The notes under the pieces: generated by a model
Databases searched by the model: none
What the model saw: only the letters and a program-made list of their open reading frames with translations
What the model was told of the DNA's origin: nothing
Shown: positions 2,928 to 21,494 of the stretch, piece after piece
Layout: every line of letters starts with the position of its first letter
Position numbering within the stretch: position 1 is the first letter of the stretch
Source: a virus
IMG/VR virus record: IMGVR_UViG_3300033145_000979
Location: 1-21,494 of that record
Length of the DNA stretch: 21,494 nt
Strand: one strand, 5' to 3'
Translations under genes and position numbers: made by a program

Positions 2928-3464
2928 TTAAGTCACCTTAGTTTTTTTCTTCCACGCGGTTCCCCCTAACGCAACTAATGCCGCAGCTAAAGCCGCAAGC
3001 GATAAACCGGAACCATCATTTTTTGCCTCATCTAAAGCAGTTTTTAACTCGGGGTCGTCTACTGATAATTCTTCGAGCCTCGCAAGCACTTCTTGTTTGT
3101 CGGCCAAATTATCCTTAAATCTCTTTATCTCTCTTGCCTCTGTATTTTCCTGGTGTTTTTTTAGATCAGTTGTGCGTTTATCTTTTCTTGCTTGAATTAC
3201 CACCTGTCTTGCTTTTATAACTTCGGTTGTCCATACAGTATTTGCTATCTCTTTAACCTTGATATTTTCGTTTGTTAAATCAGCACCAACTTCAAGGCAA
3301 TGCCGATGATTTCTTTTTATTTCTACGCCATCTTTAAATGTTGTTGTCACTTTCTTAACCTGCAATCTTCCATCTGCAAGAACCTCAACTTGATAACTTT
3401 CTGTTGCAAAAACAAACGCTGTCATTGAACAGAATAAAACCAATGTTAGTAATGTTATCCTCAT
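2928..3464 (-). CDS. Exported or virion-associated protein with signal peptide and C-terminal membrane helix, 178 aa
   Basis: ATG with AAGGGAG 5 bases upstream. Residues 1-20 are a textbook Sec signal (MR, hydrophobic core LLTLVLFCSMTAFVFA, likely cut before TE). The next region, YQVEVLADGRLQVKK and DGVEIKRNHRHC, resembles a beta-rich segment seen near tail genes of other phages (a DG-x-(I/L)-QV strand, DGVEI, then an R-H-R-H turn); this likeness is from memory. Residues about 90-150 are a charged coiled coil. The C-terminus has a hydrophobic helix (LSLAALAAALVALGGTAW) followed by KKK. The signal plus C-terminal anchor predicts an envelope protein or a virion protein that meets the membrane, perhaps a spanin-like or tail-associated factor. 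Confidence 0.7.
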   Translation of the reverse strand: MRITLLTLVLFCSMTAFVFATESYQVEVLADGRLQVKKVTTTFKDGVEIKRNHRHCLEVGADLTNENIKVKEIANTVWTTEVIKARQVVIQARKDKRTTDLKKHQENTEAREIKRFKDNLADKQEVLARLEELSVDDPELKTALDEAKNDGSGLSLAALAAALVALGGTAWKKKTKVT

Positions 3465-3474
3465 AATATCTCCC

Positions 3475-4413
3475 TTATTGTGCTATGTAATGACCCATTA
3501 GTAAAACTCTACTTGCATTACCAAGATTATTCTCTGTTAGGGTTGTATTTGTCCCGCCTTCTGTTATTTCGTGAAGCCCAATGATTGTATCATTATTATT
3601 GAGATGACAATAATAAACATCGGCGAATGTAGCATCAAAAAGAGACATACTTGGCACACTATCAAACGCATCACCGTTACCCACCACAAAAGGCAACCCT
3701 GTTATAGTGGCATCCCCGGTAGAATCACCATTATCTGTTAAAATAATATACACTTTAAAAAATACTCTATCTCCAATTTTAGTATATTTCCCTGCTTGTT
3801 GACTATAAGTAGTATTTGTTGAAGCCCCGCCAAACTCAAGTTCTGGCGTAAATGTCCCTTCTTCATAATCATCTAAAGTATTTACATCTGCACTCGGGTT
3901 ATCAATACTGGGGAATTTTATTTGCCCACCAGTAAAAGAAACTGTGGGTCCAGAAATAACATCTGTGATAATAGTGCCCACAGTAAAAACTGTCATATTG
4001 TCAACTAAAATCTTACCAGCCGTTCCCGGTGTTAAAAGTGTACCTTCAAAACTTATTCCAGTTCCGCTTAATACAATCGAAGATGTAACCCCGTCTGTTG
4101 ATAGTATCCAGTTATTAGCAGTATCGTCATATTTTATAAATGGTTTATTAGCATCAGCATTATTGGCATTTATGGTTTTATCTCCCACAGCTCCATCGCC
4201 TACATTCAAAGTATTTGCTGTTTGGTTTATATCTATATGATCATGGGCATTAAATTTTGTGCTTACCTCGTTATTCCTTGCATTTTCATCTGCTGCCGTA
4301 ATAGCCGTTCCCGAAGAAGCTGACGGAGAAATTGACATGCTATTCGTTGGTGCAGCCATGACTTTCATAGTAAACATTAGTCCTATCAAGACAAAGATAA
4401 TTTTCTTATTCAT
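3475..4413 (-). CDS. Tail-fibre-like protein with signal peptide, 312 aa
   Basis: ATG with AGGAG upstream, 11 bases after the preceding gene. Residues 1-20 form a signal-like segment (MNKKIIFVLIGLMF... ending VMA, then APTNS). The early part has SGTAITAADENARNNEV followed by HDHIDI, a pattern seen at the start of phage fibre and host-recognition proteins. The middle is Gly/Thr/Asn-rich and beta-prone. The C-terminal region contains LDDYEEGTFTPEL, then YTKIGDRV and ATITGLPF, a signature I associate with tail-fibre or receptor-binding C-termini in many metagenomic phages. It probably forms a trimeric receptor-binding fibre. The Sec signal is unexpected for a virion protein. Confidence 0.75.
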   Translation of the reverse strand: MNKKIIFVLIGLMFTMKVMAAPTNSMSISPSASSGTAITAADENARNNEVSTKFNAHDHIDINQTANTLNVGDGAVGDKTINANNADANKPFIKYDDTANNWILSTDGVTSSIVLSGTGISFEGTLLTPGTAGKILVDNMTVFTVGTIITDVISGPTVSFTGGQIKFPSIDNPSADVNTLDDYEEGTFTPELEFGGASTNTTYSQQAGKYTKIGDRVFFKVYIILTDNGDSTGDATITGLPFVVGNGDAFDSVPSMSLFDATFADVYYCHLNNNDTIIGLHEITEGGTNTTLTENNLGNASRVLLMGHYIAQ

Positions 4414-4424
4414 GTAATCTCCTT

Positions 4425-4700
4425 TTATATTTGTTGCCAGGTTGTATCGCTATCAGTATTTACCCATAAAGTAAATGTCCCTGAATTATTATATAAAACT
4501 GGTTGCCCTAGTACCCCTTTAAGTGTCCCATTAGGAGCTGATGTAACGACATCCATTCTATTTATTCCATTATATATTTCAGAAAAATATGCTTGTTCCT
4601 GTGCTGGTTCCCCTGATAATGGGGGAGGCGTAGAAATAGTTGCTCCTATTGTTCCCGCAATAAAAAACCCTAAAACGATTCCACTTATAAAATTTCTCAT
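4425..4700 (-). CDS. Short tail-fibre-associated protein with N-terminal signal, 91 aa
   Basis: The ATG overlaps the upstream stop as ATGA, so it is translationally coupled to the large tail gene. Residues 1-20 are hydrophobic (FISGIVLGFFIAGTIGA) and read as a signal peptide or an N-terminal anchor. The rest is TPPPLSGEPA, then an Asn/Asp-rich beta stretch ending LWVNTDSDTTWQQI. The VVTSAPNGTLKG...LWVNTD pattern matches short modules found at the base or middle of phage fibres. Its position between the large tail protein and the fibre gene suggests a fibre adaptor. Function is inferred. Confidence 0.7.
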   Translation of the reverse strand: MRNFISGIVLGFFIAGTIGATISTPPPLSGEPAQEQAYFSEIYNGINRMDVVTSAPNGTLKGVLGQPVLYNNSGTFTLWVNTDSDTTWQQI

Positions 4701-6265
4701 AGTCTATCCTGCTGTTCTACATAAATTTGAAATCCCTTTACCTCAACCGGTTCGTCTAAATTAGAATTTAAAAAATTAACTTGGAAAAACTTTCCTTCCT
4801 TGTTTACTTCAATCCTTCCTATGATGACATTCTGCCCGCCATATATATCCGTATCAAAAATAGCAGTGTCCCATAATGAGCTGTCCCCTAAAAGATTTAT
4901 ATTCTCTGTGGTGCCTGTTCCTTCAAAATCCCTCCTTGTTTCTACCGTTAAATCATAATCCCCCTTTTGTGAAGCATATACATTTAGCAGCTTCCAATCT
5001 TTATCTGGATTTAACTCGGGGAACCTATATTGCTTGGTAGTATAAAAAGCGTCAATAGCTGTGCCATTATCATTAGTTCCGGAAGGATACTTATAAGCAA
5101 GCCCGCCGTAATCCCCAAAAACTAGCATGTCTTTTCCATTGCCATCATCAGCAACGGTCATAGCGTTAGCATTGATTCCACTAAACCTTGTCCACGCCTG
5201 ATTAAAGCTATCAAATAATAAAATGGAATCGTGCATCGAAGCGCTTGATGTCGAAAAAGAAATATAAAAATTCTTGTCAAATTGCTCTGTTACTGAATAT
5301 TGCCACCTTGAAAAATTAGCTGTATCCCGCGTTCCTTCTACATTTTTTGAGATAAGCTGTACTCTTATTGCTCCATCATAAATGTATGAATCACCTTTCC
5401 CGTCGGTAAAAAAGAAACTATTGCCTATTCTTTTTACTGCATTCGGAGAGGTACAGCCAATTCCTGATACCATTCTCTGTAATTGAAAATTGTCTTTATC
5501 GTCACCGCTCAATCTCCAAATAGAAGTGTCTTTAAATATATACAAGGAATCAAACCCAGGTATTATAGATCTGATTATAGATCCGTCGTCTGTGTCCAAT
5601 GCAACATTGCCGCTTATACCCGTTGTCCAATTTTCAATATCACCAACATCAGAAAAATAAAGGGTGGATGGGTTTGAGTCGTTGCCGGCTGCAAAACCCA
5701 TGTTTTTATGAAAAGCTACTACAGAAGCGTTTGGTGGGCTTCCGGCCAATAGAGCAGCATTACCAACTTCAGACCATACATAAGGAGCAGTAGAATTTAA
5801 ACCATCCTCGATTATTATGGCATCTTCTCCTACAGCAAAGGAGGAGAGGTTGTCTTGGCCTATGGCGAAAGACAATGTGCCGGTAATATCATCCCATGTT
5901 CCATCCGGACCGCCCCCAACCCCATAATCCATTTTAAAAATCTTATTGTTATCGGCTACACTAATGATATATTTTGAACCCGACGTAGGTGCGTAATAAC
6001 TAATTCCAGTGAATGCAGGTGTACCACTTAGCGCTACTGAGTTTAATGTTGAGGTTCCGGCCCTAGTCGCAAAACTGCCATAAGTTGATAGGGTCATATT
6101 TTGTACGTCAGCAGCTTCCCCATCCGCTATCGCCGTTGGCGCAGACACATCATTTATCCCGCCTGAATTATCAAAAAAATCAAAATGGGCCCAAGTAATT
6201 TCAGCATGAGCGAAATTAATGAATGAAAGAACTATTAATATTGTACTTAATATAATTTTCTTCAT
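4697..6265 (-). CDS. Large tail (stabilisation/nozzle-type) protein with signal peptide, 522 aa
   Basis: The start overlaps the previous stop as ATGA. Residues 1-21 are a clear signal peptide (MKKIILSTILIVLSFINFAHA, then EITWAH). The mature start has the pattern of short-tailed-phage tail proteins: GGINDVSAPTAIADGEA followed by QNMTL and a G-x-(x)-RAG turn, usually read as G(I/L)N...DGE...QN...G...RxG. The body is beta-rich with repeated aromatic/Gly-Asp turns (for example WTTGISGN, FKDTSIWRLSG, FFFTDGKGDSYIYDG, AWTRFSGI, LVFGDYGGLAYKY), consistent with a beta-propeller in the tail nozzle or stabilisation protein. It follows the adaptor gene, as expected. The added Sec signal is the oddity. 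Confidence 0.8.
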   Translation of the reverse strand: MKKIILSTILIVLSFINFAHAEITWAHFDFFDNSGGINDVSAPTAIADGEAADVQNMTLSTYGSFATRAGTSTLNSVALSGTPAFTGISYYAPTSGSKYIISVADNNKIFKMDYGVGGGPDGTWDDITGTLSFAIGQDNLSSFAVGEDAIIIEDGLNSTAPYVWSEVGNAALLAGSPPNASVVAFHKNMGFAAGNDSNPSTLYFSDVGDIENWTTGISGNVALDTDDGSIIRSIIPGFDSLYIFKDTSIWRLSGDDKDNFQLQRMVSGIGCTSPNAVKRIGNSFFFTDGKGDSYIYDGAIRVQLISKNVEGTRDTANFSRWQYSVTEQFDKNFYISFSTSSASMHDSILLFDSFNQAWTRFSGINANAMTVADDGNGKDMLVFGDYGGLAYKYPSGTNDNGTAIDAFYTTKQYRFPELNPDKDWKLLNVYASQKGDYDLTVETRRDFEGTGTTENINLLGDSSLWDTAIFDTDIYGGQNVIIGRIEVNKEGKFFQVNFLNSNLDEPVEVKGFQIYVEQQDRL

Positions 6266-7386
6266 GATCTATTATAAGGTATCGGCACGTTATATCCTGC
6301 CGGTAAATTAAACCTCCTTCTGTGAAAGAATAAATCATCCTGGGAAGACCTCGGCAACGAAACATTGCGATTTATATTCCCAATTCTTTTCCAAACATTT
6401 TCTATTTGTGCTTGGAATAAAGCCTCTTGTTTGGTGGCCTCTGTTTTATCCTTAGTCATCCATGCCCATATAAGACCGCCTGTTATCAGCACATATTGAT
6501 ACTTCTCTGGGAAATCCGGTATGTCTTGATCATTAACCAATGGTGCTGCTATCCTCTGATACCTGAAATATATATGCTGCACAATGTCCGGTATTTGGAA
6601 AAACTGCACTATTAAATTATCCAAGTGAAGAATGAAAGACGCTCCTGTTGCCGCAGAGACTAATCTATCATAAATTGTTATCTGAGTATTACTATCAACT
6701 GATTTAACAGTATACACATTTGCGCCTATTGTTATCCTGGTGCCCGCGCTTAATCCTTCAACTGAAAGCCATGATGTCCCTACGCCCGTTAACGTACTGG
6801 TATTTACTGAGCCGGACAATGTTCCTGTAGTATTCTCATCTAATTGTGAACCAATAAGTATTTGAAAATTAGGGTTCCCTTCGCTTGTCGGAGTGGGTTC
6901 GTAAACATCAAACGCAGTATCAGGTATCCCTATTAAAGCTACCCCGTCTTGAATTTGACGCATTACTTTATACACATCTAAATCTGCTGGCAACTTATAC
7001 TCATCTTTAAAAATCAAGAAAGTAGCCTCTGTATCAGTATCGCCCTGGTATACTACTTCTAAGGTCAGATTATTCGCATCAGCAACACTCTTAATGACAT
7101 AAAATGCGTTGTCTCCCTCCACTCTTAACTTCCTTCCTACCATAGCCGATGTAAACGCGGTGGTAGTACCCACAACGGCGGCAGAACCATTATTTACTTC
7201 AATAGTTCCTGTTTCATAAGTTGCAACTGTTGTTATAATGCCTTTGCTGTTTAAGTATGGAAGATTAAACGCTGTAGCTCTATCGAGCGCCATCTGGATA
7301 CCACTTTTAATTAATGTATCTTGAGATTGCACATTCGATATATCCTTTATCGCAGAAAGTATCGTCGAGAATTGGAACCTTGGCAT
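6262..7386 (-). CDS. Tail adaptor / head-tail connector-like protein, 374 aa
   Basis: ATG with AAGGAAA upstream; the stop overlaps the next gene's ATG. The N- and C-terminal parts are mostly helical (residues 1-50, and about 265-374 with FPEKYQYVLITGGLIWAWMT), typical of the adaptor ring that bolts the tail to the portal (the role played by T7 gp11 or P22 gp4). Two similar beta modules are inserted, residues about 58-117 and 187-246; each runs GT-I/L-x...S/A...GxGT/GTT...G-x-x-I/L-x-V/I...V-K/I-S-V...LT/IT. There is no signal peptide, unlike its downstream neighbours. The role rests on operon position and the helical/beta layout. Confidence 0.7.
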   Translation of the reverse strand: MPRFQFSTILSAIKDISNVQSQDTLIKSGIQMALDRATAFNLPYLNSKGIITTVATYETGTIEVNNGSAAVVGTTTAFTSAMVGRKLRVEGDNAFYVIKSVADANNLTLEVVYQGDTDTEATFLIFKDEYKLPADLDVYKVMRQIQDGVALIGIPDTAFDVYEPTPTSEGNPNFQILIGSQLDENTTGTLSGSVNTSTLTGVGTSWLSVEGLSAGTRITIGANVYTVKSVDSNTQITIYDRLVSAATGASFILHLDNLIVQFFQIPDIVQHIYFRYQRIAAPLVNDQDIPDFPEKYQYVLITGGLIWAWMTKDKTEATKQEALFQAQIENVWKRIGNINRNVSLPRSSQDDLFFHRRRFNLPAGYNVPIPYNRS

Positions 7387-7398
7387 AATAGTTTCCTT

Positions 7399-7872
7399 TT
7401 ATTTTTTTACCTTTTTAGATGGTTTTTTCTTAGCCGCTTTCTTTTTTTCAGTTTTAGGAGCCGATCCAAGTTCTGCAAGTTTTTTCTCATATTGCTCTAT
7501 CAATAACTTTGCCTTTTTCTGATCGGTTAATGATTTTGTTTTAGCTGATGCCGCATTTTTCTTTTCCTCGGCAAACGCTTTTTTCTGTTCGTCCAATGCT
7601 TTAACTTGATCTTGGATAACAAGCGTATCACTATCCCGGGTTTCTGCTGTACTCAATAACTCTTGAGCCTTTTTACGAATGTTCTGTGCTTCATTTTTAA
7701 GCTTGATACATTCTCTATCACAAGCTTGTTTTGTCGCTCTTGCTGATTTTTCAGCATCCCCTAAAATCTTATCCCTCTGGTTCACCAAAACTTCTATTTC
7801 TGAGGATACAAATTTCTTTCTTGAATCCAGTGCCTTTAATTCACTTTTAATCAGTTTATCAATTTCGCTCAT
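7399..7872 (-). CDS. Coiled-coil protein with lysine-rich tail, 157 aa
   Basis: ATG with a perfect AGGAGG site, overlapping the preceding stop. Almost the whole protein is one charged coiled coil (K/E/A/Q-rich, residues about 1-135), ending in a cluster of lysines with Ala/Pro (EKKKAAKKKPSKKVKK) that resembles histone-H1-like tails. It forms a pair with the next upstream gene, another coiled-coil protein. It lies between the O-antigen-ligase-like gene and the tail adaptor, so it may be a DNA-binding internal component or an assembly factor. I do not recognise a family. Confidence 0.7.
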   Translation of the reverse strand: MSEIDKLIKSELKALDSRKKFVSSEIEVLVNQRDKILGDAEKSARATKQACDRECIKLKNEAQNIRKKAQELLSTAETRDSDTLVIQDQVKALDEQKKAFAEEKKNAASAKTKSLTDQKKAKLLIEQYEKKLAELGSAPKTEKKKAAKKKPSKKVKK

Positions 7873-8602
7873 CTTTCTTTTCCTCCTCTAATAGTTTCTC
7901 CCAATTATCACAAATAACCTCTAATTCTTTAATCCTTTTGCCTTGCTCTGCTATGACATCTTTTGATTCATCATGGGTTTTATCATGTTGCTTTAAGCCC
8001 ATAAAATTTTCTTTCTCTATTTCAAAAGACTTTATTTCAGTCTGAAGTTTCCCTATCGTATCGTTCCATTCTTTTTCCTTGGCTTCTGTAGCAATGGCGA
8101 CACCTTTAAGTCTGTCTCTTTCAATATTTACTTCTTTCCATGCAACATCGGCAGAATTGATTATCTCTTTTGCCTCTTTTAATTCTTCTCCAATTTTCCT
8201 TTTGTACTCCTCAAAATTGGATCTCTCTAAATTCAACTTGCCATATCTTTCTTCTAAATCAAACGCTCTTGCTTCTCTTCTGTCCATCCCAATCTTGCGC
8301 TGATTTATGCTTTGCTCAAGAATCTCAACTTGGTCGATTCTCTTTTCTACGGCAACTCTTTTTAGCTCGATGCGTTTTTCTTCTGCAGCATAAGTCGTCA
8401 TTCTAGCCTGATGACGATGCTTTTCAGCTTCCTCATCCTGGAGGTCAGCAGAATGCGCTATTGCCTCCTGCCCGTTCCTGGCAATTTGAAGTTTCTTAAT
8501 ATCCTCCTCTAATACCTTTTTAACTTTTTCCAGGGTTCCTATATCTTCTAAATCCTTTTTTGTTTTTTCATCTGGTTTGATTTCTTTAACTTGTTCACTC
8601 AT
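7859..8602 (-). CDS. Long coiled-coil protein, 247 aa
   Basis: The GTG at 8611 is in frame, but the ATG at 8602 is preferred: it has AGGAAAGG upstream and overlaps the stop of the membrane-protein gene. Residues about 10-245 form a nearly unbroken heptad-rich coiled coil (for example KKVLEEDIKKLQ, EEKRIELKRVAVEKRIDQVE and KRIKELEVICDNWEKLLEEE). A 14-base overlap links it to the next coiled-coil gene. No enzyme motif, signal peptide or membrane helix is visible. A rod-shaped assembly, chaperone or internal core protein is possible but unproven. Confidence 0.75.
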   Translation of the reverse strand: MSEQVKEIKPDEKTKKDLEDIGTLEKVKKVLEEDIKKLQIARNGQEAIAHSADLQDEEAEKHRHQARMTTYAAEEKRIELKRVAVEKRIDQVEILEQSINQRKIGMDRREARAFDLEERYGKLNLERSNFEEYKRKIGEELKEAKEIINSADVAWKEVNIERDRLKGVAIATEAKEKEWNDTIGKLQTEIKSFEIEKENFMGLKQHDKTHDESKDVIAEQGKRIKELEVICDNWEKLLEEEKKDERN

Positions 8603-9755
8603 ACGATTCACCTTTCCTCATTATGGCCTCAAGCGCCGCTACATATATTATCCCTGTTAACGCCAGTGGCGCTATCCTCATAGGGAAATTTCCTTGACAA
8701 ATAAATAAAAATGCCGCAAAAGAACTAGCAAACCCTACGATCAACATATTCTTTTTCGTGTAAAAAATTCTTTTTATCAAATCAAACACATACATAAGTA
8801 CAAAAAATAAAAGAACCAAGCCTCCATCGTGAACTATCTGCAACGTTTCAGAGTGGGGAGATAACGCTACCCGGCCATATAAAGGACGGTACATGTTAGA
8901 GGCAAAATTACCTAATCCCTTACCGAACAATGCTGTATCTTTGCACCATCCTATAACCTGTGGCCACATCTTAAGCCTATCCCCGTCACTTAGATAGTGT
9001 GGCATTTTTATTAATATAAAAATAAAACCCATAAATCCGATTGCTGTTAATATAGATAATAATTTCCATTTTTTAGATAATAGAAGATAGAAAAATAATC
9101 CTACACCGCAAGCAAGAAAAGATAAAGAGCTTCCGGTTAAATAAACTGCTAACAAACAAAGTAAATAAATAACTTTATATTTTTTCTCTGTAAACATTAA
9201 ACATAGAGGAGATAGTGCAGCCAAGAAATTACCTGTAAGATTTTGGTTCCCCATAGTAGTGATTGCGGCAAACCCAGAGAATAGTTTAACCGCTTGAGAA
9301 TTACATATTGGGTCCAGCGCTAACACCTGTATGAACGAGTATATTGAAAACCCAAACGCTGTCCAACACAGCATCTTTGCCATATCAACCCATCTGGCTA
9401 AATTATCTGTATACTCAACTAATGTCTGTATTATCCACAGAGAGAGTATAACATTTATAAACGGTCTGATTAGCCATAAATTCCAAACTACCGGTGTTCC
9501 GGGCCGCCCATTTGTAATAGGCAAATAAAAATACCATATAAAGGATATAGCGCAATGGATTAAAATTATTGCCAGCCATTTATTTTTGAACGTAATACTT
9601 TTGGGTTGCGTAGAAATCCATGATGCTCCAATAAAACAAAACCCGAATAAATTGAATACCATTTCTTTGGGTATCCAAAATATATCGCCAACCCCACGCA
9701 TAGGATTAATCGCTATTGCCGTTAAAATGAATAGTATATAAAAAAATATCCACAT
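8595..9755 (-). CDS. O-antigen ligase/polymerase-like (WaaL/Wzy_C) membrane protein, 386 aa
   Basis: A polytopic inner-membrane protein with about ten or more hydrophobic segments. Hallmarks of the O-antigen ligase/polymerase superfamily are visible: GNQNLTGNFLA at residues 169-179; a long periplasmic loop with DR and W (about 259-264), then FGKGLGNF (277-284); and a conserved histidine in SPHSETLQ (H301) followed by HDGG. Known members transfer or polymerise O-antigen or related glycans in the periplasm. It sits between decoration and coiled-coil virion genes, unlike a normal host locus, so it is probably a phage-carried modifier of the host surface glycan. The ATG at 9755 lacks a clear Shine-Dalgarno and follows a strong hairpin, so expression may be damped. 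The precise reaction is not known. Confidence 0.8.
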   Translation of the reverse strand: MWIFFYILFILTAIAINPMRGVGDIFWIPKEMVFNLFGFCFIGASWISTQPKSITFKNKWLAIILIHCAISFIWYFYLPITNGRPGTPVVWNLWLIRPFINVILSLWIIQTLVEYTDNLARWVDMAKMLCWTAFGFSIYSFIQVLALDPICNSQAVKLFSGFAAITTMGNQNLTGNFLAALSPLCLMFTEKKYKVIYLLCLLAVYLTGSSLSFLACGVGLFFYLLLSKKWKLLSILTAIGFMGFIFILIKMPHYLSDGDRLKMWPQVIGWCKDTALFGKGLGNFASNMYRPLYGRVALSPHSETLQIVHDGGLVLLFFVLMYVFDLIKRIFYTKKNMLIVGFASSFAAFLFICQGNFPMRIAPLALTGIIYVAALEAIMRKGESYE

Positions 9756-9764
9756 AGTTAGTTA

Positions 9765-9798
9765 GAGGGGAAGGGGATAAATCATCCCCCATCCCCTC
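9765..9798 (-). promoter_or_regulatory. GC-rich stem-loop between decoration and O-antigen-ligase-like genes
   Basis: Just after the stop of the decoration gene the transcript can pair 9765-9771 with 9792-9798 (7 bp) and then 9773-9778 with 9784-9789 (6 bp) around a 5-base loop. No U-run follows on the minus strand, so it is not a standard terminator. A stable stem here could protect the abundant upstream capsid/decoration message, or reduce translation of the next gene, which lacks a Shine-Dalgarno. Confidence 0.7.
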
Positions 9799-9807
9799 CC
9801 TTTCGAT

Positions 9808-10317
9808 TTAATCTGCTCCTGTTGGTGCTATCCAAATGATAATCTTATCTCCGTCAGTTGCATCGCCTGCTTCTAAGGCAATACCTAGGTTACTTCCTCC
9901 ACCTACATACCCACGGTTAGGCCCATCATCTGCCAGAATCTTGATAGAAGTTCCTACCGATGCTCCTGAAGATACTGCATCGGATTTGTCATTGACAAGA
10001 GTATCAACCGGTCCGCGTACAACAATTATACCGGGAGAACCAACAGCGATAGTAGTCTGGACTTCAGCAATAACTCCAACTACTAATACGCTATCTGCGC
10101 CTGATACAACTGTTATATAGCCACCGAGGGTGGTGCCCGCAGTTGCCGAAGTATCTAAAATAACTGCCATTCCGGAAGAAAGCACAGAACCAGAGTTATT
10201 AAAGAACACTTCAGTTTCCTGAAGCTGCCGATAGTCAGAACCGTCACCGGCAAACGCTACTCCACTAAATGCAAATACTGCAATTAACAGAGCAATGAAC
10301 ATAATCTTATATTTCAT
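9808..10317 (-). CDS. Capsid decoration-type protein with Sec signal peptide, 169 aa
   Basis: An upstream ATG at 10329 overlaps the capsid stop but has no Shine-Dalgarno. The ATG at 10317 has GGAGG 5 bases upstream and is preferred. It begins with a clear signal peptide (MKYKIMFIALLIAVFAFSGVAFA, cut before GDGSD). The rest is a compact Gly/Ser/Val-rich beta protein (VLVVGVIAEV, SPGIIVVRGPVDT, KIIIWIAP), similar in size and style to decoration or head-fibre-base proteins encoded directly after the capsid gene. The position next to the capsid gene supports that. A secreted decoration protein is unusual: either the signal is real and the product is exported, or the segment has another use in the virion. 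Confidence 0.75.
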   Translation of the reverse strand: MKYKIMFIALLIAVFAFSGVAFAGDGSDYRQLQETEVFFNNSGSVLSSGMAVILDTSATAGTTLGGYITVVSGADSVLVVGVIAEVQTTIAVGSPGIIVVRGPVDTLVNDKSDAVSSGASVGTSIKILADDGPNRGYVGGGSNLGIALEAGDATDGDKIIIWIAPTGAD

Positions 10318-10328
10318 TTTAGCCTCCA

Positions 10329-11330
10329 TTAGTCAGTATCCGCGTTTAGTAAAACACCGTTTCGTCCGAGGTTAGTCATGATTGCATTCCCGGCCCACAA
10401 TACATAAGTAACCAGATCATCAGCACCTTGAGACTTGATGAAGTCACCTATTTCTGCGTCTCTTCCTTCTCTTACGAAAAGACGATAATACTTGGCTATG
10501 TTCAAAAAATACCCGAAATTTGCAGGACAAGCATCATCCGCAAATACTAAGGCATTCTTATACCGGATATTACCAAATCCGGCATCTATCATAGCTTCTT
10601 TACCTGCTGCAATCCCCACAAGAGGAAGATTGATGGTATAAGAAGTTGACAGATTAGCCTCGAAGTTATCCATAGCTGCACCTGTTAACACAACTGTGTC
10701 TATAACTTCATTGAATCGTGATGTTTGACGATACAGGGTTCTAAATCTTGCTAACCCGTTTGCGCTAAAATCACTAGACACATTAGCGGACTGATGACGC
10801 CATTTCGCTAACGTAGCCCTACTCAACTTTCCTACTGTCCCTGATGTAGTAGATGTAGTCAACATATTCTGTAAGCCAGTAATTTTTCTCAAGTCGGTTT
10901 CATTCGCACTTGAAAAAAGACCTATTTCTTTTCCGCCAATAGATTCAGTCATTGCTAATTCTGCTGTTTGTAAAAACATCTCAACTAGATCTATTTCATT
11001 ACCCTCTGGGGTCTTGATCATATCTGAACCGGAAACCTGCACTGGAACTGCAATCTGTTTCCATTCATAGATACATGACGTTACTGGATCTCCTCTTACC
11101 GGAGTTAACGGATCTAAGTCAGTATAACCTTGAGCTACCGGAAGTTCTTTTATGATGCTGAACCTAAGATGTGGTTTTCCGCCAGTTCTGATTATAGCGT
11201 TCATATCCTGCAAACGATATAAAAGCGCTGTCTTAGTTGTCGCGTTATCAAACAGAACACCTTGGGCTTCATCAGCTACGATTGAGAATATTCTCTGATA
11301 TTCTCTGGTTACTGATAAATTACCTGCCAT
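10329..11330 (-). CDS. Major capsid protein (HK97-like fold expected), 333 aa
   Basis: ATG with AGGAG upstream. The gene follows scaffold and precedes decoration, the standard capsid position. The protein has an N-terminal charged helix (VTREYQRIFSIVADEAQ), a central region with VSGSDMIKTPEG and a helix LVEMFLQTAELAMTES, a Gly/Thr loop, a helix-rich SRATLAKWRHQ and FNEVIDTVVLTGAAMDNFEA, and a C-terminal domain (FGYFLNIAKYYRLFVREGRDAE). These features and the length fit HK97-fold capsid proteins of short-tailed phages. There is no signal peptide and no protease-processing gene nearby. The fold is inferred from length and context. Confidence 0.85.
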   Translation of the reverse strand: MAGNLSVTREYQRIFSIVADEAQGVLFDNATTKTALLYRLQDMNAIIRTGGKPHLRFSIIKELPVAQGYTDLDPLTPVRGDPVTSCIYEWKQIAVPVQVSGSDMIKTPEGNEIDLVEMFLQTAELAMTESIGGKEIGLFSSANETDLRKITGLQNMLTTSTTSGTVGKLSRATLAKWRHQSANVSSDFSANGLARFRTLYRQTSRFNEVIDTVVLTGAAMDNFEANLSTSYTINLPLVGIAAGKEAMIDAGFGNIRYKNALVFADDACPANFGYFLNIAKYYRLFVREGRDAEIGDFIKSQGADDLVTYVLWAGNAIMTNLGRNGVLLNADTD

Positions 11331-11362: not shown

Positions 11363-12271
11363 TCATTTCTTTCCCAAGCGTTCTTTAATTCTCTTCATTA
11401 CATCGCCAAAATTCTTTCTACCTCGATCATCTTTTCTTACCTCAGTAGTCGGAATGAATGTTGATGAAGGCCCGCCTGGTCCTGAACCATCTTTCTTCCT
11501 GTCAATTTCTCTCTGTTTATTAATTTCAGCCTGCTTTAAAAGAGCGGCTTTAATTTCAGAGTCGTCTGCAAAATGATAGAGAAGTTTAGAGACTTTCTGA
11601 TTTGGATATTTTATCGCATGAGACACAATTTCTCTCTTATGCTTGGCAACCAAATCTATCCCAAACTCTTCCTCTAATTTTTTCACCTGAACTTCTATAG
11701 TACTTGCATGTCCCAATAACGCCGTGCTTTCAACTGTAGCGAGTTTTGTCTGTAATTCCAGTATCATCTTCTCTAGCTCCGCAGTTTTTTCACTAGCATT
11801 ATTGCCAGGCGCCTCTTGCTGAACGATTTTTCTGATTAATCTTAGTTGCTCTCTTCCTGCCGGATCCGCAGTTTCCTCAATCAGTTTATCAATTTCTTTC
11901 AAGTTAGCATCCTTAACTACAGGATTAATAACCTTGCCCGCCTTGGTATCATTATATGCTTTCGTCATAGCTGCTTTAAGTTTTGGGTCGGCCTCCATCT
12001 CATTGAATACTGAAGACAGTGCATCAACCCTAACTTTTTCTTCCGCGAGGGAATCCTTATCCTTTTTGAGTCCCTCCATAGATTGAGCATAGTGTTTACC
12101 TTGTTGGGCGTAATTAACCAATTCTTCTTGAGTAACTTCGATTTCCTGCCCGTCGACTTTTATCGTGGTTTTTTCTGGTGCATTTACTTCTCCTCTGTTA
12201 TTAAAAGGAAAAGGTGCAACCTTACTATTCCACAATAGGTTCTTCAGGACTTTATTAATCATGTTCATCAT
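11363..12271 (-). CDS. Capsid scaffolding protein, 302 aa
   Basis: ATG with AAGGAG upstream. The N-terminal segment contains TTIKVDGQEIEVTQEELVNY, a motif I associate with scaffold-type proteins of metagenomic phages. The body is strongly helical and charged, with a coiled coil around residues 150-200. The C-terminus is basic (KKDGSGPGG..., ending FGDVMKRIKERLGKK), as expected for the capsid-binding tail of a scaffold. It lies directly upstream of the capsid gene. No protease motif is visible, so a non-proteolysed scaffold is likely. Confidence 0.8.
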   Translation of the reverse strand: MMNMINKVLKNLLWNSKVAPFPFNNRGEVNAPEKTTIKVDGQEIEVTQEELVNYAQQGKHYAQSMEGLKKDKDSLAEEKVRVDALSSVFNEMEADPKLKAAMTKAYNDTKAGKVINPVVKDANLKEIDKLIEETADPAGREQLRLIRKIVQQEAPGNNASEKTAELEKMILELQTKLATVESTALLGHASTIEVQVKKLEEEFGIDLVAKHKREIVSHAIKYPNQKVSKLLYHFADDSEIKAALLKQAEINKQREIDRKKDGSGPGGPSSTFIPTTEVRKDDRGRKNFGDVMKRIKERLGKK

Positions 12272-12795: not shown

Positions 12796-13214
12796 ATTAA
12801 CCTTTCTTTGTTTGCTAGAAATATCTTTTCTGCTATCTTTTTCCTGTTCCGGCCATCATCTTCTTTATTTATCCTTTTTCTAAACCTTGCTTCATCCATG
12901 CACTCCTTTGGTGACGCATTTGCATAACCATGTTCTTTAAGCATTTTTTCATAATGACGCTTTGATCTAATTTCTACCGGTGTTGGTCCGAATATTTCAG
13001 CATTAAAGTAATACGCCTGGTCTTTATGTGTATTAAACGCTCCTGTTACCTGTATCCCTATGCTCGGTGCTTTATTAAAACATCCCTTGCAAAGTTTTTT
13101 TCCATTAATTTTGTACGGAGTTTCCAGTTCCTTTTTGCACTGTTCACAGTTTGAACACGTCTTACCGTTCACCGCTACTGTGAAACTTTTTTCTTGCCAA
13201 CTACAACCGGACAT
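12774..13214 (-). CDS. Zinc-finger phage protein, 146 aa
   Basis: Starts at an ATG that overlaps the portal stop (TAATG), with a GGGGGGAG Shine-Dalgarno. Near the N-terminus the Cys pattern C-x2-C-x2-C (CSNCEQC), then CKGC about 20 residues later, suggests one zinc-binding site of LIM/treble-clef style. The C-terminal part includes SKRHYEKMLKEHGYANAS and a basic helix. The SKR-helix-HGY pattern recurs in short proteins encoded beside phage portal genes (FmdB-like zinc-ribbon group); this link is from memory. Role unknown. Confidence 0.65.
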   Translation of the reverse strand: MSGCSWQEKSFTVAVNGKTCSNCEQCKKELETPYKINGKKLCKGCFNKAPSIGIQVTGAFNTHKDQAYYFNAEIFGPTPVEIRSKRHYEKMLKEHGYANASPKECMDEARFRKRINKEDDGRNRKKIAEKIFLANKERLIWNPGKR

Positions 13215-15238
13215 TATCTCCCCCCCTGTTCTCCGCCAACTCCCCGGCTACTTCTTACTGAACCAACTATGTCAGGGAATGCAGTAACCCCTCCCCTGCG
13301 TTGGTCCGGGTTATTGGTCTGTGGGGCTATTTTGCTATCTCCTCTTTGAGGTAAAACATTTGGATTCTGTGCTTCAAAATTCTGTTTATGTTTTAATAGG
13401 TGCTCATCCATCTCTTTAGGTATCTCTAGCCCAGGAGTTTCGTAAGCCTGAGAATGAACCTGCATATGCAACATGTGGTTTTCATTCGGAGATACTACTT
13501 GTGGCACGCCCTCTAATAATAATTTATTTTCTTCCTGCGCGGCAGCTATCTCTTCCTCATCATGCCCAAGCACTGCTCTTTCAATGTCTCTAAAATTAAA
13601 CTTCTTCAATAACTGCTTTAAGAGTATAGATTCATTGAACCTCCCCGGGAAGTTCGCTTTAATTACGCCCATTAAATCCGTCCATTGTTTCCTTTCTACT
13701 GCCTCGTCCTTTGCCGGCCTCATTGAACCTGCTTCTATACTGAATCTTAAAAGCCTGTTTATGATCTTTCTTGCTTCATTCCTAGGGACTTTAGTTATGT
13801 CCGGCCATTGCTTGTCAGTGGGCACTTCCCCAATAACCTCTTCCACGTCTTTTTTATTTTTAAATTCCCATAGCAAAGCAGCTAAACCCTTCCCTACTTC
13901 AGTAATAAAATCTTCAACTACATCCACCTTTTCCGATTGCCTTAATACGGCGCCAGCTCTAACATTCTCACTTTCAGTCGCGGTCTGCACTCCTCTTGCT
14001 ACACCTAGAAGCTGGTTATATCCGCTAATCCTCATCAAGCTTTCAAGGATAATGCCTCTCAACGCATAAAAATCTTTAGGCAATGCAGGCGGGGTGAACC
14101 CTTTAACAAATTCCTCTGAAATTTCATCAAGCAAAACAAAATCTATATCACTCGCTTTTTGTATTTTATCAGCCTGCGCTGGAGTTACCGCACCATTTTT
14201 AGCAATTATTAATGTGCCCGCTCTTTTTCTGTGCTTCATCATCGCAGTAGTTATGAACGATAGTTCTTTTAATTGAGGTATAAGAGGAACTATATCTGAT
14301 AACCCGAAAGAGTGACAGTTATTATCGGTCTTGGGGATCTCATTAAAAATCAGAGGATAAAGCACATGCCCTTCATTAAGATAATCCCAATTATTTTCAT
14401 GTATAGCATCTTCATCAAATCCTTTTATAAGAGTAAATCTTTTCCTGCCGACTTTATCAAAAATATGATATAAAGTTATCGGAGTAAGTTCAAAATCAAT
14501 CTGAGTAAAATCTATGCTCTTCGGCAATGCCGTTAAATTGTAAGCCTTGACCGAGCTGATTTTATTATGCACCACACCTAATTGCCTGATTTTATCTTTA
14601 TGTTTATACGACGGGTTATCCAGTACAATGTCTAAAGTAGTGTCCTCTTCTACGATCATGTACGGCGATTCTCTTATGTCATGGTATCCATTAGGCCACA
14701 TCACGTCACGGCTTGACCTGTGATTTAAAAATACATCATCCTCTTTTATTGTCTCGTCGAGGATTCCCTTTTGCTCTTCTACTTTCTCATTACCGAGTTT
14801 TTTCAATTCAGGGAACTCTTGCTCTATTTCTTTTTCCTGCTTTTTCTTTTCTGATATAAATAAATATCCTATTTCCAAAAATCCCGGGGTCTGTAATATA
14901 GCATCCAGTATCGCCTGCTTTGTTTTCTTCTTTCCTTTTTTAGTTCTCCATGTATCATTCAGCATCAACTCCATTGTCTCCGCGAACTCCCCAAGTTTAG
15001 GATTTTTAGTTCTAATAAAGAAGTTTGGATCTCTGGAATAAGAAGCGGAAAGAACAACCTGGACATATTCATAAACAAAATTCTCGTCTATCATCTCCCC
15101 GTCTTGGTTGAAAACATTGCCAAAGAAAGAACTGGTATACATCTTAACTATTGTATCCCGTTCTTCTTTTTTTGTATTACGAAGATCTATAGCTCTGCTT
15201 ACCCTTTGGAACCACATTTTTACTTTATTTGATTTCAT
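13214..15238 (-). CDS. Portal protein, 674 aa
   Basis: ATG with GGAGAC upstream, overlapping the lipoprotein stop (ATGA). The size and place between terminase and scaffold/capsid genes fit a portal protein. The N-terminal part is basic and helical (MKSNKVKMWFQRVSRAI, then KKEERDTIVKMYTSSFFG). A central region contains LNEGHVLYPLIFNEIP and long helices (FALIP-like stretches are absent, but QLKELSFITTAMMKHRKRAG and the helical VQTATESENVRAGAVLRQSE look like the typical stem/wing region). The C-terminus is Gly/Arg-rich (RGGVTAFPDIVGSVRSSRGV) and probably disordered. I could not place it in a particular portal subfamily. Confidence 0.85.
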   Translation of the reverse strand: MKSNKVKMWFQRVSRAIDLRNTKKEERDTIVKMYTSSFFGNVFNQDGEMIDENFVYEYVQVVLSASYSRDPNFFIRTKNPKLGEFAETMELMLNDTWRTKKGKKKTKQAILDAILQTPGFLEIGYLFISEKKKQEKEIEQEFPELKKLGNEKVEEQKGILDETIKEDDVFLNHRSSRDVMWPNGYHDIRESPYMIVEEDTTLDIVLDNPSYKHKDKIRQLGVVHNKISSVKAYNLTALPKSIDFTQIDFELTPITLYHIFDKVGRKRFTLIKGFDEDAIHENNWDYLNEGHVLYPLIFNEIPKTDNNCHSFGLSDIVPLIPQLKELSFITTAMMKHRKRAGTLIIAKNGAVTPAQADKIQKASDIDFVLLDEISEEFVKGFTPPALPKDFYALRGIILESLMRISGYNQLLGVARGVQTATESENVRAGAVLRQSEKVDVVEDFITEVGKGLAALLWEFKNKKDVEEVIGEVPTDKQWPDITKVPRNEARKIINRLLRFSIEAGSMRPAKDEAVERKQWTDLMGVIKANFPGRFNESILLKQLLKKFNFRDIERAVLGHDEEEIAAAQEENKLLLEGVPQVVSPNENHMLHMQVHSQAYETPGLEIPKEMDEHLLKHKQNFEAQNPNVLPQRGDSKIAPQTNNPDQRRGGVTAFPDIVGSVRSSRGVGGEQGGR

Positions 15239-15624
15239 TTTGTCTCCGTATTAAGTTTTATCATTGGCATATCCATCGGCACCCATTCCCATTTCTCGTC
15301 CACTTTAGTAAGCAAACTCATGGCCGGGTATGATAACTTAAAAGATTTATAACCCTGGTTTTGCCCCCAATACTCCCAACCGTTAAGAAAATTCTCACAA
15401 ATAGGGCAGTTTATCTCTCGTTTTGGCAATTTATATTGAAATATACCCCATATCTTAACTGATTTAAAGCCTTTCTTGTCTAAGCTATTTTTTTCTATTA
15501 AATCGTTATCATAATTGTAAACATGTTTCCTGCATTCCGGACAGTACACCGCAGTCACATCTTTGGGTTTGCTGCACCCGCTCAGTAATATACAAAAACA
15601 TAATGCTATTAAAAGTTTTCTCAT
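15235..15624 (-). CDS. Lipoprotein with zinc-ribbon motifs, 129 aa
   Basis: The ATG overlaps the large-terminase stop (ATGA), with AGGAA upstream. Residues 1-17 (MRKLLIALCFCILLSGC) contain a lipobox (LSGC) with the lipidated Cys at position 17. The mature part has CPEC (Cys28, Cys31) and CPIC (Cys73, Cys76) 42 residues apart, together suggesting one zinc-ribbon. The C-terminal half is aromatic-rich (WGQNQGYKSFKLSYP). The predicted product is exported and membrane-anchored. Some phages carry lipoproteins that block re-infection (T5 Llp is one), but those are not known to be zinc-ribbons. Placement between terminase and portal is odd. Function unassigned. Confidence 0.75.
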   Translation of the reverse strand: MRKLLIALCFCILLSGCSKPKDVTAVYCPECRKHVYNYDNDLIEKNSLDKKGFKSVKIWGIFQYKLPKREINCPICENFLNGWEYWGQNQGYKSFKLSYPAMSLLTKVDEKWEWVPMDMPMIKLNTETK

Positions 15625-17327
15625 TTAATAATTCCTGACGTTATTAATTCATAAGGATTTTTACCTTTAGTCGCATTCAATCTTTCATCCTTTAAAGCGC
15701 CATATGTTCCGAAGGTCATCTGTTTTTGTTCCTCGGGACCTTTAATCTCCGGGGGCTTTATTGTCGGTATTTTATTTATAAACGTCATGTCATCCATAAT
15801 GTCATCATGCTTACACAATGGAAACTGAGTTAATTCTAACTCCATGTCATCAGTAAGATCATAATTCCTACCGTCATACCCCATATTTACAATGGAACCC
15901 TTTTTCGGCCACAGCCAGTTATGCTGTGTATAATCCGGAACCAAGCTTCTAATCCTGTCTTCCTTGGACGCAGTTTGAGAATTAATCTCCGTGACTGAAA
16001 AGAACAACCTCTCTTCCTTGCGTTTTTCCTTAAAGTAATAGACATCTGTTTCCTGGAACCCTATTGCTTCCCAGCCGCAACCTTTAATCTTCCACTTTTT
16101 AGCCAGCCTGATCGCTTCATCAACCCTTCTTTTTGGGTCTATCTTATCCCTGATGCCATCAACAATAAACTTCCGGATACGCCCCTCATACCATGCTAGA
16201 CCGACTACCAGCATAACTGTATAATCACTTCTTTTCTTTCTACGACTTGCAGGGTCAATCAATAGGTAAAAGTTGCACACAGAGGGTATAAAGCTAAAAT
16301 AGCTGATCATCCCTTCATTAAACTGCATTCTGGCCGGGTCATCGGGCTTTAAAAGCATCTGGCAGTTAAACACCCACATATCCCGCATCATTTCCTGAAC
16401 ACCTTCAACACTGAACCTATCCGGATTAGAAATATTCTCAACTGCTAAGTTCTTAGGATCCTTGTCTTTCAAAAGAGGGAAGTCAAGAACCTTTATGCGA
16501 GGGTTGTTAATCTTCACACTATAAAGGTCGACATGATGATACCTAGTGCCCTCGTAATCCTGTAAGGTTATCTGCGGATCGTCAAAATGGCCCTGGTTAA
16601 ACCGGTTATCCCAATCAAGAGTCTTTTTAATCTGCTCTTCCGTGTTCACACTTTTTTCAGTGACTAAATCGTTCTTCTTTGCCACCTGCCAGTGACGTCC
16701 AGTGATTTCAGTATCTACTCCAATGGCCTCGACACTATCCTCAGACCGGGATTTATTCGACCTGCAGGCCACGCTGAACCCGCTCATATTGCCCCAATCC
16801 TTCCGATCAGGAATGTACTCAGGGTACAAATACTTTAAAGAACTAGATAAAAACGTATTCTTAATCGCCATTAAATTATCAGAACTGTTATCCTGCCGGT
16901 TGTGACATAGGGCAATAACAATATCCGGAAAGTTTAATAATAACTGAACCGTGTGTTTCTTGGTAATAATCGTAGTCTTATAAAAGGTTCTGTGACACAG
17001 ATACATCCTCTCCATACACAAATCTTTCTTAGGGTCATCAGTAACTTCGTCCACCCTCAATCCGTACCGGCTCATCTTGTGCATCTTAATATGTAAAATC
17101 TGCCAGTTCATTAAAGCTATCTCGTCACAAATAGGACGGTAATACTCCGGATACTTGGCTATTAAATCATCTCCGGTCAAGCAGCACAGATAAAAAAGGT
17201 CGTTTTGACACAAGAACTTCCTTTTATCATGCAGAATCTTTACAGCAATATTCTCCGATCCCGCACCCGCAATCTCTTGGTCGAACATTAATTTCCTGGC
17301 TTCTATTGTTTCCCGCAGTTTAATCAT
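15621..17327 (-). CDS. terL: Terminase large subunit, 568 aa
   Basis: DNA-packaging motor protein with an N-terminal ATPase and a C-terminal nuclease. The Walker A position holds HRTFYKTT (residues 112-119), matching the R-x3-K-(S/T)-(S/T) form seen in many phage terminases. The expected Walker B site, after TGRH, reads WQVAKKNDLVT (213-223). It lacks the hydrophobic strand and the first Asp of the usual hhhhDD, although the second Asp and the adjoining LVT are kept. EGTRYHHVDLY (259-269) fits the coupling motif. The RNase H-like nuclease is well preserved: IDPAS (Asp358), WEAIG (Glu420) and KHDDIMDD (Asp508/509, 512/513). The gene follows a 45-residue ORF by one base. Confidence 0.9.
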   Translation of the reverse strand: MIKLRETIEARKLMFDQEIAGAGSENIAVKILHDKRKFLCQNDLFYLCCLTGDDLIAKYPEYYRPICDEIALMNWQILHIKMHKMSRYGLRVDEVTDDPKKDLCMERMYLCHRTFYKTTIITKKHTVQLLLNFPDIVIALCHNRQDNSSDNLMAIKNTFLSSSLKYLYPEYIPDRKDWGNMSGFSVACRSNKSRSEDSVEAIGVDTEITGRHWQVAKKNDLVTEKSVNTEEQIKKTLDWDNRFNQGHFDDPQITLQDYEGTRYHHVDLYSVKINNPRIKVLDFPLLKDKDPKNLAVENISNPDRFSVEGVQEMMRDMWVFNCQMLLKPDDPARMQFNEGMISYFSFIPSVCNFYLLIDPASRRKKRSDYTVMLVVGLAWYEGRIRKFIVDGIRDKIDPKRRVDEAIRLAKKWKIKGCGWEAIGFQETDVYYFKEKRKEERLFFSVTEINSQTASKEDRIRSLVPDYTQHNWLWPKKGSIVNMGYDGRNYDLTDDMELELTQFPLCKHDDIMDDMTFINKIPTIKPPEIKGPEEQKQMTFGTYGALKDERLNATKGKNPYELITSGIIK

Positions 17328-19828: not shown

Positions 19829-19964
19829 GGCTTTCCCTCCTTGTTTTAGCAGTTATCTCCTCCGTCTCTACCTCAACCATGCTTTTGATCATTTCAAATG
19901 CCTCCTCGCAATTTTTCTTGTTTTTCCCTGTCACTTTAATTTTTAATATTTTTATTATTTCCAT
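19815..19964 (-). CDS. Hypothetical protein, 49 aa
   Basis: The ATG at 19964 has AAGGG upstream and lies 29 bases inside the end of the endonuclease-like gene. The protein begins with a strand-like MEIIKILKIKVTGK, followed by a charged helix (KNCEEAFEMIKSMVEV) and a basic end. It overlaps the CXXC microprotein start by 14 bases. No family is recognised. Codon-level overlap with two neighbours is typical of compact phage early genes. Confidence 0.5.
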   Translation of the reverse strand: MEIIKILKIKVTGKNKKNCEEAFEMIKSMVEVETEEITAKTRRESHEKL

Positions 19965-20463
19965 AATTTACCCTTTTATTTAGTTTCTTAATATTATCTA
20001 CTCTTTCCATAAATTGACAATTTGCATATTCATAATTGCCGTCGTTGTTAATCTTATCAATGGATGGGGTTTTCATATTATATGCCTTATACCTGAACCA
20101 TAATTCTTTTATTTCTAACATAGTTAATTTAAATTTAATCCCCCTGCCACCATAACGACTGTAAGCAGTATTATTTGGGTTTGTACATCTTGATTTAGCA
20201 CTTATATAAGAAACCGCCCAAGGATTATCTTTTAGCCATTTACGCCTAAGATGATACATTCTTTTTTTATGCTTAATATTATAGTTTTTCTTATCTATTT
20301 TTAATTTTTCTTTATTTCCTCTTGCATATTTCCTGACAGCTTTTTTTATCTTTTCTTTATTCTCTTTGTAATAGTTTTGCTTATCTTTTTTTATTTTCGC
20401 TTTATTTTTAACTCTATATATACGATAATATTCTTTTGTCTGCTCTTTATCTTTCCAATCCAC
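19936..20463 (-). CDS. HNH-type (homing-endonuclease-like) protein, 175 aa
   Basis: The GTG at 20463 is chosen for its GGAGGG site 4 bases upstream; a longer start would lie in the leader RNA. The N-terminal half (residues about 1-80) is Lys-rich with repeats such as NYYKENKEKIKKA and YARGNKEKLK. The C-terminal domain has the pattern SRCTNPNNTAYSRYGGRGI, a helix ELWFRYKAYNMK, then PSIDKINNDGNYEYANCQF and ERVDNIKKLNKR. This is the D-(R/K)-I-(D/N)-(N)-x-G-Y-x-x-x-N-C motif of phage homing-type endonucleases in the HNH superfamily. The classic first His is not seen, so nuclease activity is uncertain. It has a clear relative about 1 kb upstream. Confidence 0.7.
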   Translation of the reverse strand: MDWKDKEQTKEYYRIYRVKNKAKIKKDKQNYYKENKEKIKKAVRKYARGNKEKLKIDKKNYNIKHKKRMYHLRRKWLKDNPWAVSYISAKSRCTNPNNTAYSRYGGRGIKFKLTMLEIKELWFRYKAYNMKTPSIDKINNDGNYEYANCQFMERVDNIKKLNKRVNYGNNKNIKN

Positions 20464-20477
20464 AATACCCTCCAAAT

Positions 20478-20576
20478 AAAAAAGCCCCATTTCTGCGGTC
20501 AGTAGAAAGAACGGTTAATCCTTTCACGCATACTTTGAGGCTGTCTTGACATAAAAAATCCGTACTCTCTACTGAC
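20478..20576 (-). ncRNA. Compact structured leader RNA or small RNA, about 99 nt
   Basis: The predicted start of transcription coincides with a 12-bp helix: 20576-20565 (GUCAGUAGAGAG) pairs with 20509-20498 (CUUUCUACUGAC), with one G-U pair. A U-U mismatch and ACGG/CCGU (20563-20560 with 20514-20511) extend it. A segment inside the loop, AGCCUC (20542-20537), can pair with GGGGCU (20488-20483), which lies outside the helix and directly precedes UUUUUU (20483-20478). This could be a pseudoknot or an alternative terminator. The RNA ends before a GGAGGG site and the GTG of the HNH-like gene. I do not match it to a known riboswitch or sRNA. Confidence 0.55.
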
Positions 20577-20629: not shown

Positions 20630-21109
20630 TTACTCTTGTGTTATAGCCTTGTGGATTGCCTTGTCTAAATTAAATTTGCTATTTTCTTCTGTATAACAAA
20701 ATTCGCATTGCTCTTGCTCATGTTCTATTCTTGGGCAAATTGCCTGACAAGTATCATCATCCCCATTACATTGATGAACAGATATTTCTCTGACCATATA
20801 TCCAACATTATCACAATTAGGGCAATCTAATCTCGACTTAATAATATCTGCTATTTCCTCAACACTCAAAGTCTTGCGTGTGTTCCAAATAATATTAATT
20901 ACTTCCCCTTCATCAAATCTAATACAATCACCCTCGCAATGATTTACAGATTCATTAAAACCACAATTACAAACTTCCATATCTTCTAAAATTTTTTCTT
21001 CGCAAGGGATTCCATTTTCTTTTGTCCACTCATATTCTTTGCTTTCTAATATATTACCAAAATTATCTTTTACTTTAAAGCTACACTTCTTCAATTTCTC
21101 AGTGGACAT
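20630..21109 (-). CDS. Cys-rich protein of unknown function, 159 aa
   Basis: The ATG at 21109 overlaps the upstream stop (TAATG) and has AGGGGG 5 bases upstream; a GTG at 21115 lies too near that site. The protein is acidic and rich in Cys: CNCGF then HCEGDC (residues about 45-65), CPNC, HQCNGDDDTC, CP, and CEFC near the C-terminus. These could form two or three zinc sites. A helical segment (LSVEEIADIIKSRL) separates the clusters. No named family is recognised. It sits between two HNH-like genes and may be an independent early gene. Confidence 0.65.
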   Translation of the reverse strand: MSTEKLKKCSFKVKDNFGNILESKEYEWTKENGIPCEEKILEDMEVCNCGFNESVNHCEGDCIRFDEGEVINIIWNTRKTLSVEEIADIIKSRLDCPNCDNVGYMVREISVHQCNGDDDTCQAICPRIEHEQEQCEFCYTEENSKFNLDKAIHKAITQE

Positions 21110-21494
21110 TAACACCCCCTACTTTGAGCTAAATTTTCTTTGAACTCCATAAAACAGCAATTACTAAACTCATAATCTCCGTTACTGTTTTCCCTATGTA
21201 TGCTCGGTTTATTCATTAGTCTAGCATTATCTCTGTGCCACAATTTCTCAACTTCTTTTAATGTGAGCTTAAACTGTATTCCTTTCCCCCCATACCATTT
21301 ATACCCTTGATATTTTTCGTCGACACATCTTTTTTTAGCACAATGATAATGAGTTGACCATGGAGCTTTCTTCCGCCATTCTCTTTGGAGTTTTAATGCT
21401 AGTTCTGGTTTATTTTTTCTAAATGCTTCACTCACTTTGCGTATTTTTTCTCTATTTCTTTCACACCATTTTCTCTTTGATTCTTTTACTTTTT
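21109..21494 (-). CDS. HNH-type endonuclease-like protein, C-terminal part (runs off right edge)
   Basis: The frame is open from the right edge to TAA at 21109. An internal GTG at 21435 is unlikely to be the start because the sequence upstream of it (KWCERNREKIRK) matches the basic N-terminal style of the related gene. The core reads CAKKRCVDEKYQGYKWYGGKGI, then KLWHRDNARLMNKPSI, then NSNGDYEFSNCCF. It shares the YGG(K/R)GI and GDYE-(Y/F)-x-N-C signatures of the gene at 20463-19936 but is clearly diverged. The DR-x-D of the family is HREN here, so activity is uncertain. It is a 5'-truncated gene at the window edge. Confidence 0.7.
   Translation of the reverse strand, partial: KVKESKRKWCERNREKIRKVSEAFRKNKPELALKLQREWRKKAPWSTHYHCAKKRCVDEKYQGYKWYGGKGIQFKLTLKEVEKLWHRDNARLMNKPSIHRENSNGDYEFSNCCFMEFKENLAQSRGC

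Follow-up and report, generated by a model that had tools for sequence, protein, structure and literature searches.

Predicted Sec signal peptides are found, in a clade of short-tailed phages, on the proteins expected to lie outside the sealed head. As far as sequence can tell, the signals are genuine, occur throughout the clade and are confined to proteins with a predicted external place, a distribution that favours export. The window, the whole stretch of DNA that was analysed, is a linear IMG/VR virus record of 21.5 kb, and its phage is, judged from capsid, adaptor and nozzle genes in matching order, short-tailed and of the P22/HMO-2011 type. The morphogenesis block lies entirely on the - strand of the window. 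It runs from the terminase through the CxxC protein, the probable portal, the probable scaffold, the capsid protein, the protein starting at 10317 and the Wzy_C membrane protein to two coiled-coil proteins, the SU10-type adaptor, the nozzle, the 91-aa protein, the fibre and the 178-aa protein; a 138-aa protein follows, and then three genes at the position of ejection proteins. The main features are listed below.

15621..17327, - strand: terminase large subunit (phrog_38, E 1.5e-44); no signal
15235..15624, - strand: small CxxC protein, between terminase and portal; lipoprotein signal, Cys 17
13214..15238, - strand: probable portal, by position and size; no signal
11363..12271, - strand: probable scaffold, by position; no signal
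10329..11330, - strand: major capsid protein (NF033394, capsid_maj_Podo, E 6e-40); no signal
9808..10317, - strand: probable decoration protein, directly after the capsid gene, role by position only; signal peptide 10249-10317
8595..9755, - strand: Wzy_C (O-antigen ligase-type) membrane protein (PF04932, E 4.6e-12)
6262..7386, - strand: head-tail adaptor (SU10_adaptor, E 4.4e-9); no signal
4697..6265, - strand: tail nozzle or stabilization-type protein (phrog_5107, E 1.5e-20; phrog_3287, E 2.9e-18; phrog_578, E 5.6e-6); signal peptide 6203-6265
4425..4700, - strand: 91-aa tail-region protein; signal peptide 4641-4700
3475..4413, - strand: tail fibre (tblastn to phage tail-fibre proteins, phrog_17970); signal peptide 4354-4413
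2928..3464, - strand: 178-aa protein (phrog_6228); signal peptide 3405-3464

The name nozzle is taken from PHROG families labelled virion structural protein, head closure and amidase, and from phage genes annotated as stabilization proteins. Virion membership is probable by homology for the nozzle and fibre proteins and by gene position for the decoration protein, the role we consider probable for the product of the 10317 gene. A search for sequence or fold similarity to known decoration proteins gave no support, with phrog_14282 at E 0.098 as the only hit; the structure model of this product (pLDDT 37) was too poor for a fold test, and hhalign against outgroup post-capsid genes returned 0.3%. 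No solved structure related to the nozzle or decoration profiles was found. At its C-terminus the 178-aa protein has a hydrophobic stretch and then KKKTK, an arrangement that resembles an envelope-anchored protein. Elsewhere in the window, at 19936-20490 and 21109-21435, two related proteins share the motif Y.RYGG[RK]GI..KLT and are possibly homing-endonuclease-like paralogues.

Ten relatives, mostly fragments, were retrieved by capsid, terminase and nozzle queries (G001-G006, G300, G301 and the capsid-level fragments G302 and G303). The nozzle gene of G003 spans the ends of its 40.8 kb contig, so G003 is probably a complete, permuted genome. The only link of the clade to a host phylum is G001, which was binned with a Planctomycetota MAG. 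In tetranucleotide composition it correlates at 0.79-0.82 with six contigs of that MAG; another MAG contig reaches 0.91 and the window 0.65. A search of 293 other Planctomycetota genomes gave one weak match, to the nozzle (E 7e-5). A scan of clade contigs turned up no tRNA genes. Two relatives have an interrupted capsid gene (L131, that is G301:17251-19053, and L001:10001-11221), and the insert in G301 encodes a Cys-rich, homing-endonuclease-like protein. A small protein of G003 (L025:12585-12986) has a signal-like start, ends in ALLKYKF and looks like an outer-membrane protein, which hints at a two-membrane host.

Signals were called with a rule-based scorer written for this analysis, which uses n-region charge, hydrophobic core, permitted -3/-1 residues and lipobox. 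Among the E. coli controls, it called all secreted proteins (8/8) and a lipoprotein (nine in all), and it rejected the cytoplasmic controls GroEL, LacZ and T7 gp10. It wrongly called LacY; thus the scorer alone cannot split signal peptides from multi-span membrane proteins, and membrane proteins have to be judged separately. In the window, 6 of 21 proteins were positive and 0 of the 15 others. The positives include the five ORFs for which the original prediction had proposed signal peptides, each of which has a positive start, a hydrophobic core of 12-16 residues and a permitted cut site (10317, VAFA/GDG; 6265, AHA/EIT; 4700, IGA/TIS; 4413, VMA/APT; 3464, VFA/TES; the slash marks the cut). These predicted peptides have the sequence features of Sec/SPase I substrates, namely a positive n-region, a core of about 7-16 residues and small -3/-1 residues. 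The sixth positive, which the original prediction did not include, is the protein starting at 15624 (15235-15624), with an LLSGC lipobox. GGAGG precedes the start at 10317, and the upstream ATG at 10329 lies directly ahead of this motif; the start of the nozzle gene overlaps the stop of the adaptor gene. The five genes had been described as one operon; they are co-directional but not contiguous, with the Wzy_C gene, two coiled-coil genes and the adaptor gene between the decoration and nozzle genes.

The same signals recur in the relatives. Allowing any plausible start, all 37 orthologues in five families carry one (decoration 8/8, nozzle 7/7, 91-aa protein 7/7, fibre 7/7, CxxC protein 8/8), in line with the consistency across homologues that had been proposed as a check. 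When starts were chosen by ribosome-binding site only, the count was 35/37. Among the other soluble families, signals were called in 0 of 86 proteins over 14 families (terminase 10, portal 11, scaffold 10, capsid 10, adaptor 7, p369 7, p146 7, coil250 7, p177 4, p90 4, coil157 3, 138-aa protein 3, p145 2 and injA 1), and the claim that portal, capsid, scaffold and adaptor lack a signal holds for every orthologue counted in these families. The integral membrane Wzy_C gene was scorer-positive in 1/8. These counts include the window itself, leave out the CxxC orthologue of G303, which has no start codon in range, and are not independent because the sequences are related, so that the Fisher value computed for the split is not to be taken as a probability. 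The split follows the expected topology: the parts that build, fill or cap the head are unsignalled, and those beyond the adaptor or outside the shell are signalled. The 178-aa protein has no orthologue by sequence among the relatives; G001 and G002 encode other signal-bearing small proteins at or near its position. G001, G002, G003, G300 and G301 encode further large proteins with signals downstream of their tail genes, and only some of these proteins match fibre families.

The N-termini are conserved as signals rather than as sequences. Signal regions are only 27-35% identical to each other, yet at the boundary set by the mature protein, placed by hand from alignments, position -1 is A, G, S or C in 29/29 sequences and position -3 is permitted in 29/29. 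The 91-aa protein has the conserved mature start ..IS(A)PPPL. The scorer still called 27-46% of shuffled signal regions with the same residues, and the case therefore rests on the fixed boundary, the lipobox swap and the family split rather than on the score by itself. The swap concerns the CxxC protein, which has a lipobox in two orthologues (window and G002) and an AxA-type cleavable site in six relatives, so that membrane anchoring appears to switch between relatives; its loci are window 15235-15624, L029:3031-3309, L034:3466-3837, L026:11534-11899, L030:7545-7913, L032:8681-9055, L017:3107-3478 and L130:12830-13171. The original prediction had named export, membrane docking and late periplasmic assembly as options and had not chosen among them. 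The sequences favour cleaved export over docking, because the cores are short and permitted residues persist at -3 and -1 of a fixed boundary in otherwise divergent signals. Signal-bearing proteins also have a lower pI and Lys content, which fits exported proteins and also fibres, and do not differ from other proteins in cysteine content. Starts were screened across the families for internal sites that would give an unsignalled form; none is conserved at the mature boundary, and dual forms from internal starts were rejected.

Outside the clade, all 12 nozzle homologues examined are without a signal and start within or shortly before the mature domain. In the alignment, MaAM05 starts MRTFQFFDNAGGIN where the window has AHA/EITWAHFDFFDNSGGIN. 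These 12 outgroup proteins indicate that the peptide was added in this clade to a pre-existing virion domain. Aligned homologues without the N-terminal segment had been named as grounds against the signals; they exist outside the clade, as these nozzle proteins, and inside it all members carry the segment. Because all clade members carry the signal, such homologues mark a discrete gain and not an artefact. Similarly, a 431-aa signal-bearing protein of G301 matches phrog_1645 (E 7e-95), annotated as virion structural protein, and four cyanophage members of that family have MAQ(W/Y).. in place of the G301 signal. As background, 3 of 695 genes of at least 80 aa score in further contigs whose capsid or nozzle proteins are related. 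Among the genes of eight such contigs that were read at length, 17/281 score, mostly those of small membrane proteins and the fibre-like proteins of G306 and G308, where one signal-like fibre each is a tail-collar fibre (phrog_523, E 2e-33 and 3e-35). A fibre-like protein of a cultured Myxococcus phage, Mx8p64, also has a signal-like start, so fibre signals may have arisen more than once. The distant signal-like fibre loci are L136:5145-6926, L136:11842-12582, L140:13122-13946, L141:1417-3252 and L152:32777-33847. Signals on nozzle and decoration proteins, as predicted here, were seen only in this clade. As sources of the clade's signals, chance is excluded and wrong start codons are rejected, on the family counts, the fixed boundary and the background of 3/695. 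In the open full-text literature, which most subscription journals lie outside, we found no report of signal peptides on several tailed-phage virion proteins.

From these sequence patterns we infer export, cleavage and a place of assembly, with graded confidence. There is an even chance, in our view, that the external virion proteins are Sec-exported and cleaved and join cytoplasm-packaged heads late. A two-compartment virion, in which heads would be made and filled in the cytoplasm and the outer layer and tail Sec-exported, matured in the periplasm and added afterwards, falls just short of that. The proposed route would begin with Sec/SPase I signals on the parts outside the sealed head, namely the probable decoration protein, the nozzle, the small tail protein and the fibres. 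Capsid, scaffold, portal, terminase and adaptor would remain in the cytoplasm, where the DNA would be packaged, and the external parts would be exported, cleaved and folded in the periplasm. They would meet the filled heads late, once lysis has opened the inner membrane or if the head comes to the envelope in some other way. The open literature searched gave no tailed-phage precedent for such a route. It counts against the route that periplasmic tail parts must meet cytoplasmic heads, for which a membrane breach is needed. In P22, the tail proteins corresponding to these plug the filled head, and export of such proteins thus poses the question of how the DNA is held.

Several other explanations would account for part of the pattern. 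If the signals were cleaved slowly or not at all, they could act as membrane tethers, with tail and decoration proteins gathering on the inner membrane and heads completed there before lysis. This is unlikely: hydrophobic N-termini on all these proteins would suit it and it would solve the meeting of tail parts with the head, but cores of 10-16 residues with permitted cut-site residues throughout point to cleavage, an AxA site is needless for a tether, and the folded part would end on the outer face unless translocation were blocked. The reading of the N-termini as structural hydrophobic elements of the virion seems highly improbable. Some virion proteins do have such elements and the shuffled regions score often, but the same n/h/c pattern recurs on several unrelated proteins, permitted cut-site residues hold a fixed place, and two orthologues have a lipobox instead of the cut site. 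It is also quite improbable that the exported pool acts alone, in receptor blocking or exclusion of other phages, with virions assembled from copies that are not exported. Cell-surface binding by fibres and nozzle proteins would suit this, and phages do export exclusion proteins; against this, the unsignalled form would lack a conserved internal start at the mature boundary, and a signal on the decoration-type protein and on every fibre is hard to explain.

Export for modification, by contrast, would add to late joining of exported parts and does not replace export. Here the block-encoded Wzy_C protein would put host lipid-linked glycans on exported virion proteins before assembly, to which we give little probability. 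Its gene lies between the decoration and tail genes in eight clade genomes, this enzyme class works on the periplasmic side, and the mature signal-bearing proteins are richer in Ser/Thr than the others (15.0% vs 11.2%). The Pfam Wzy_C match is above cut-off in the window and in 4 of 5 relatives tested, with G003 below. However, the presumed catalytic Arg and His vary among members: the candidate Arg is kept except in G301, and a His is at the usual place in 3/8 by inspection. A structure and fold search gave no significant match, and a change of host O-antigen would be an equally natural role.

The assembly of tailed phages is generally placed in the cytoplasm, and a clade with export signals consistently on external proteins would break this rule. 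Export by Sec with late joining could allow periplasmic modification of virion proteins, and the clade lends itself to a clear test of the site at which tailed virions are finished. Annotation is affected too, because in metagenomes such fibres can easily pass for secreted proteins of the host.

Compared with known systems, the clade shares with Mx8 and HMO-2011-like short-tailed phages the order terminase, portal, capsid, adaptor and nozzle, and related capsid or nozzle proteins. In contrast, the nozzle, capsid and other structural proteins tested in those phages are without signal peptides, and no Wzy_C match was found in 50,697 phage records. In carrying signals on structural proteins the clade thus differs from the 12 outgroup nozzle proteins, whose lack of a signal is not a formal group criterion. 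In filamentous phages (Inoviridae), coat proteins are Sec/YidC-dependent, virion proteins are made as signal-peptide precursors and the virion is completed at the envelope. Host secretion is used for their assembly (PMC4823517). Unlike the clade, Inoviridae are not tailed and have no prefilled capsid, whereas the capsid and packaging proteins of the clade are without signal. Sec-exported endolysins (fOg44 Lys44 and SAR endolysins) are another case of late phage proteins on the host Sec system (PMC6116005); they are lysis enzymes and not, as predicted for the proteins of this clade, parts of the virion.
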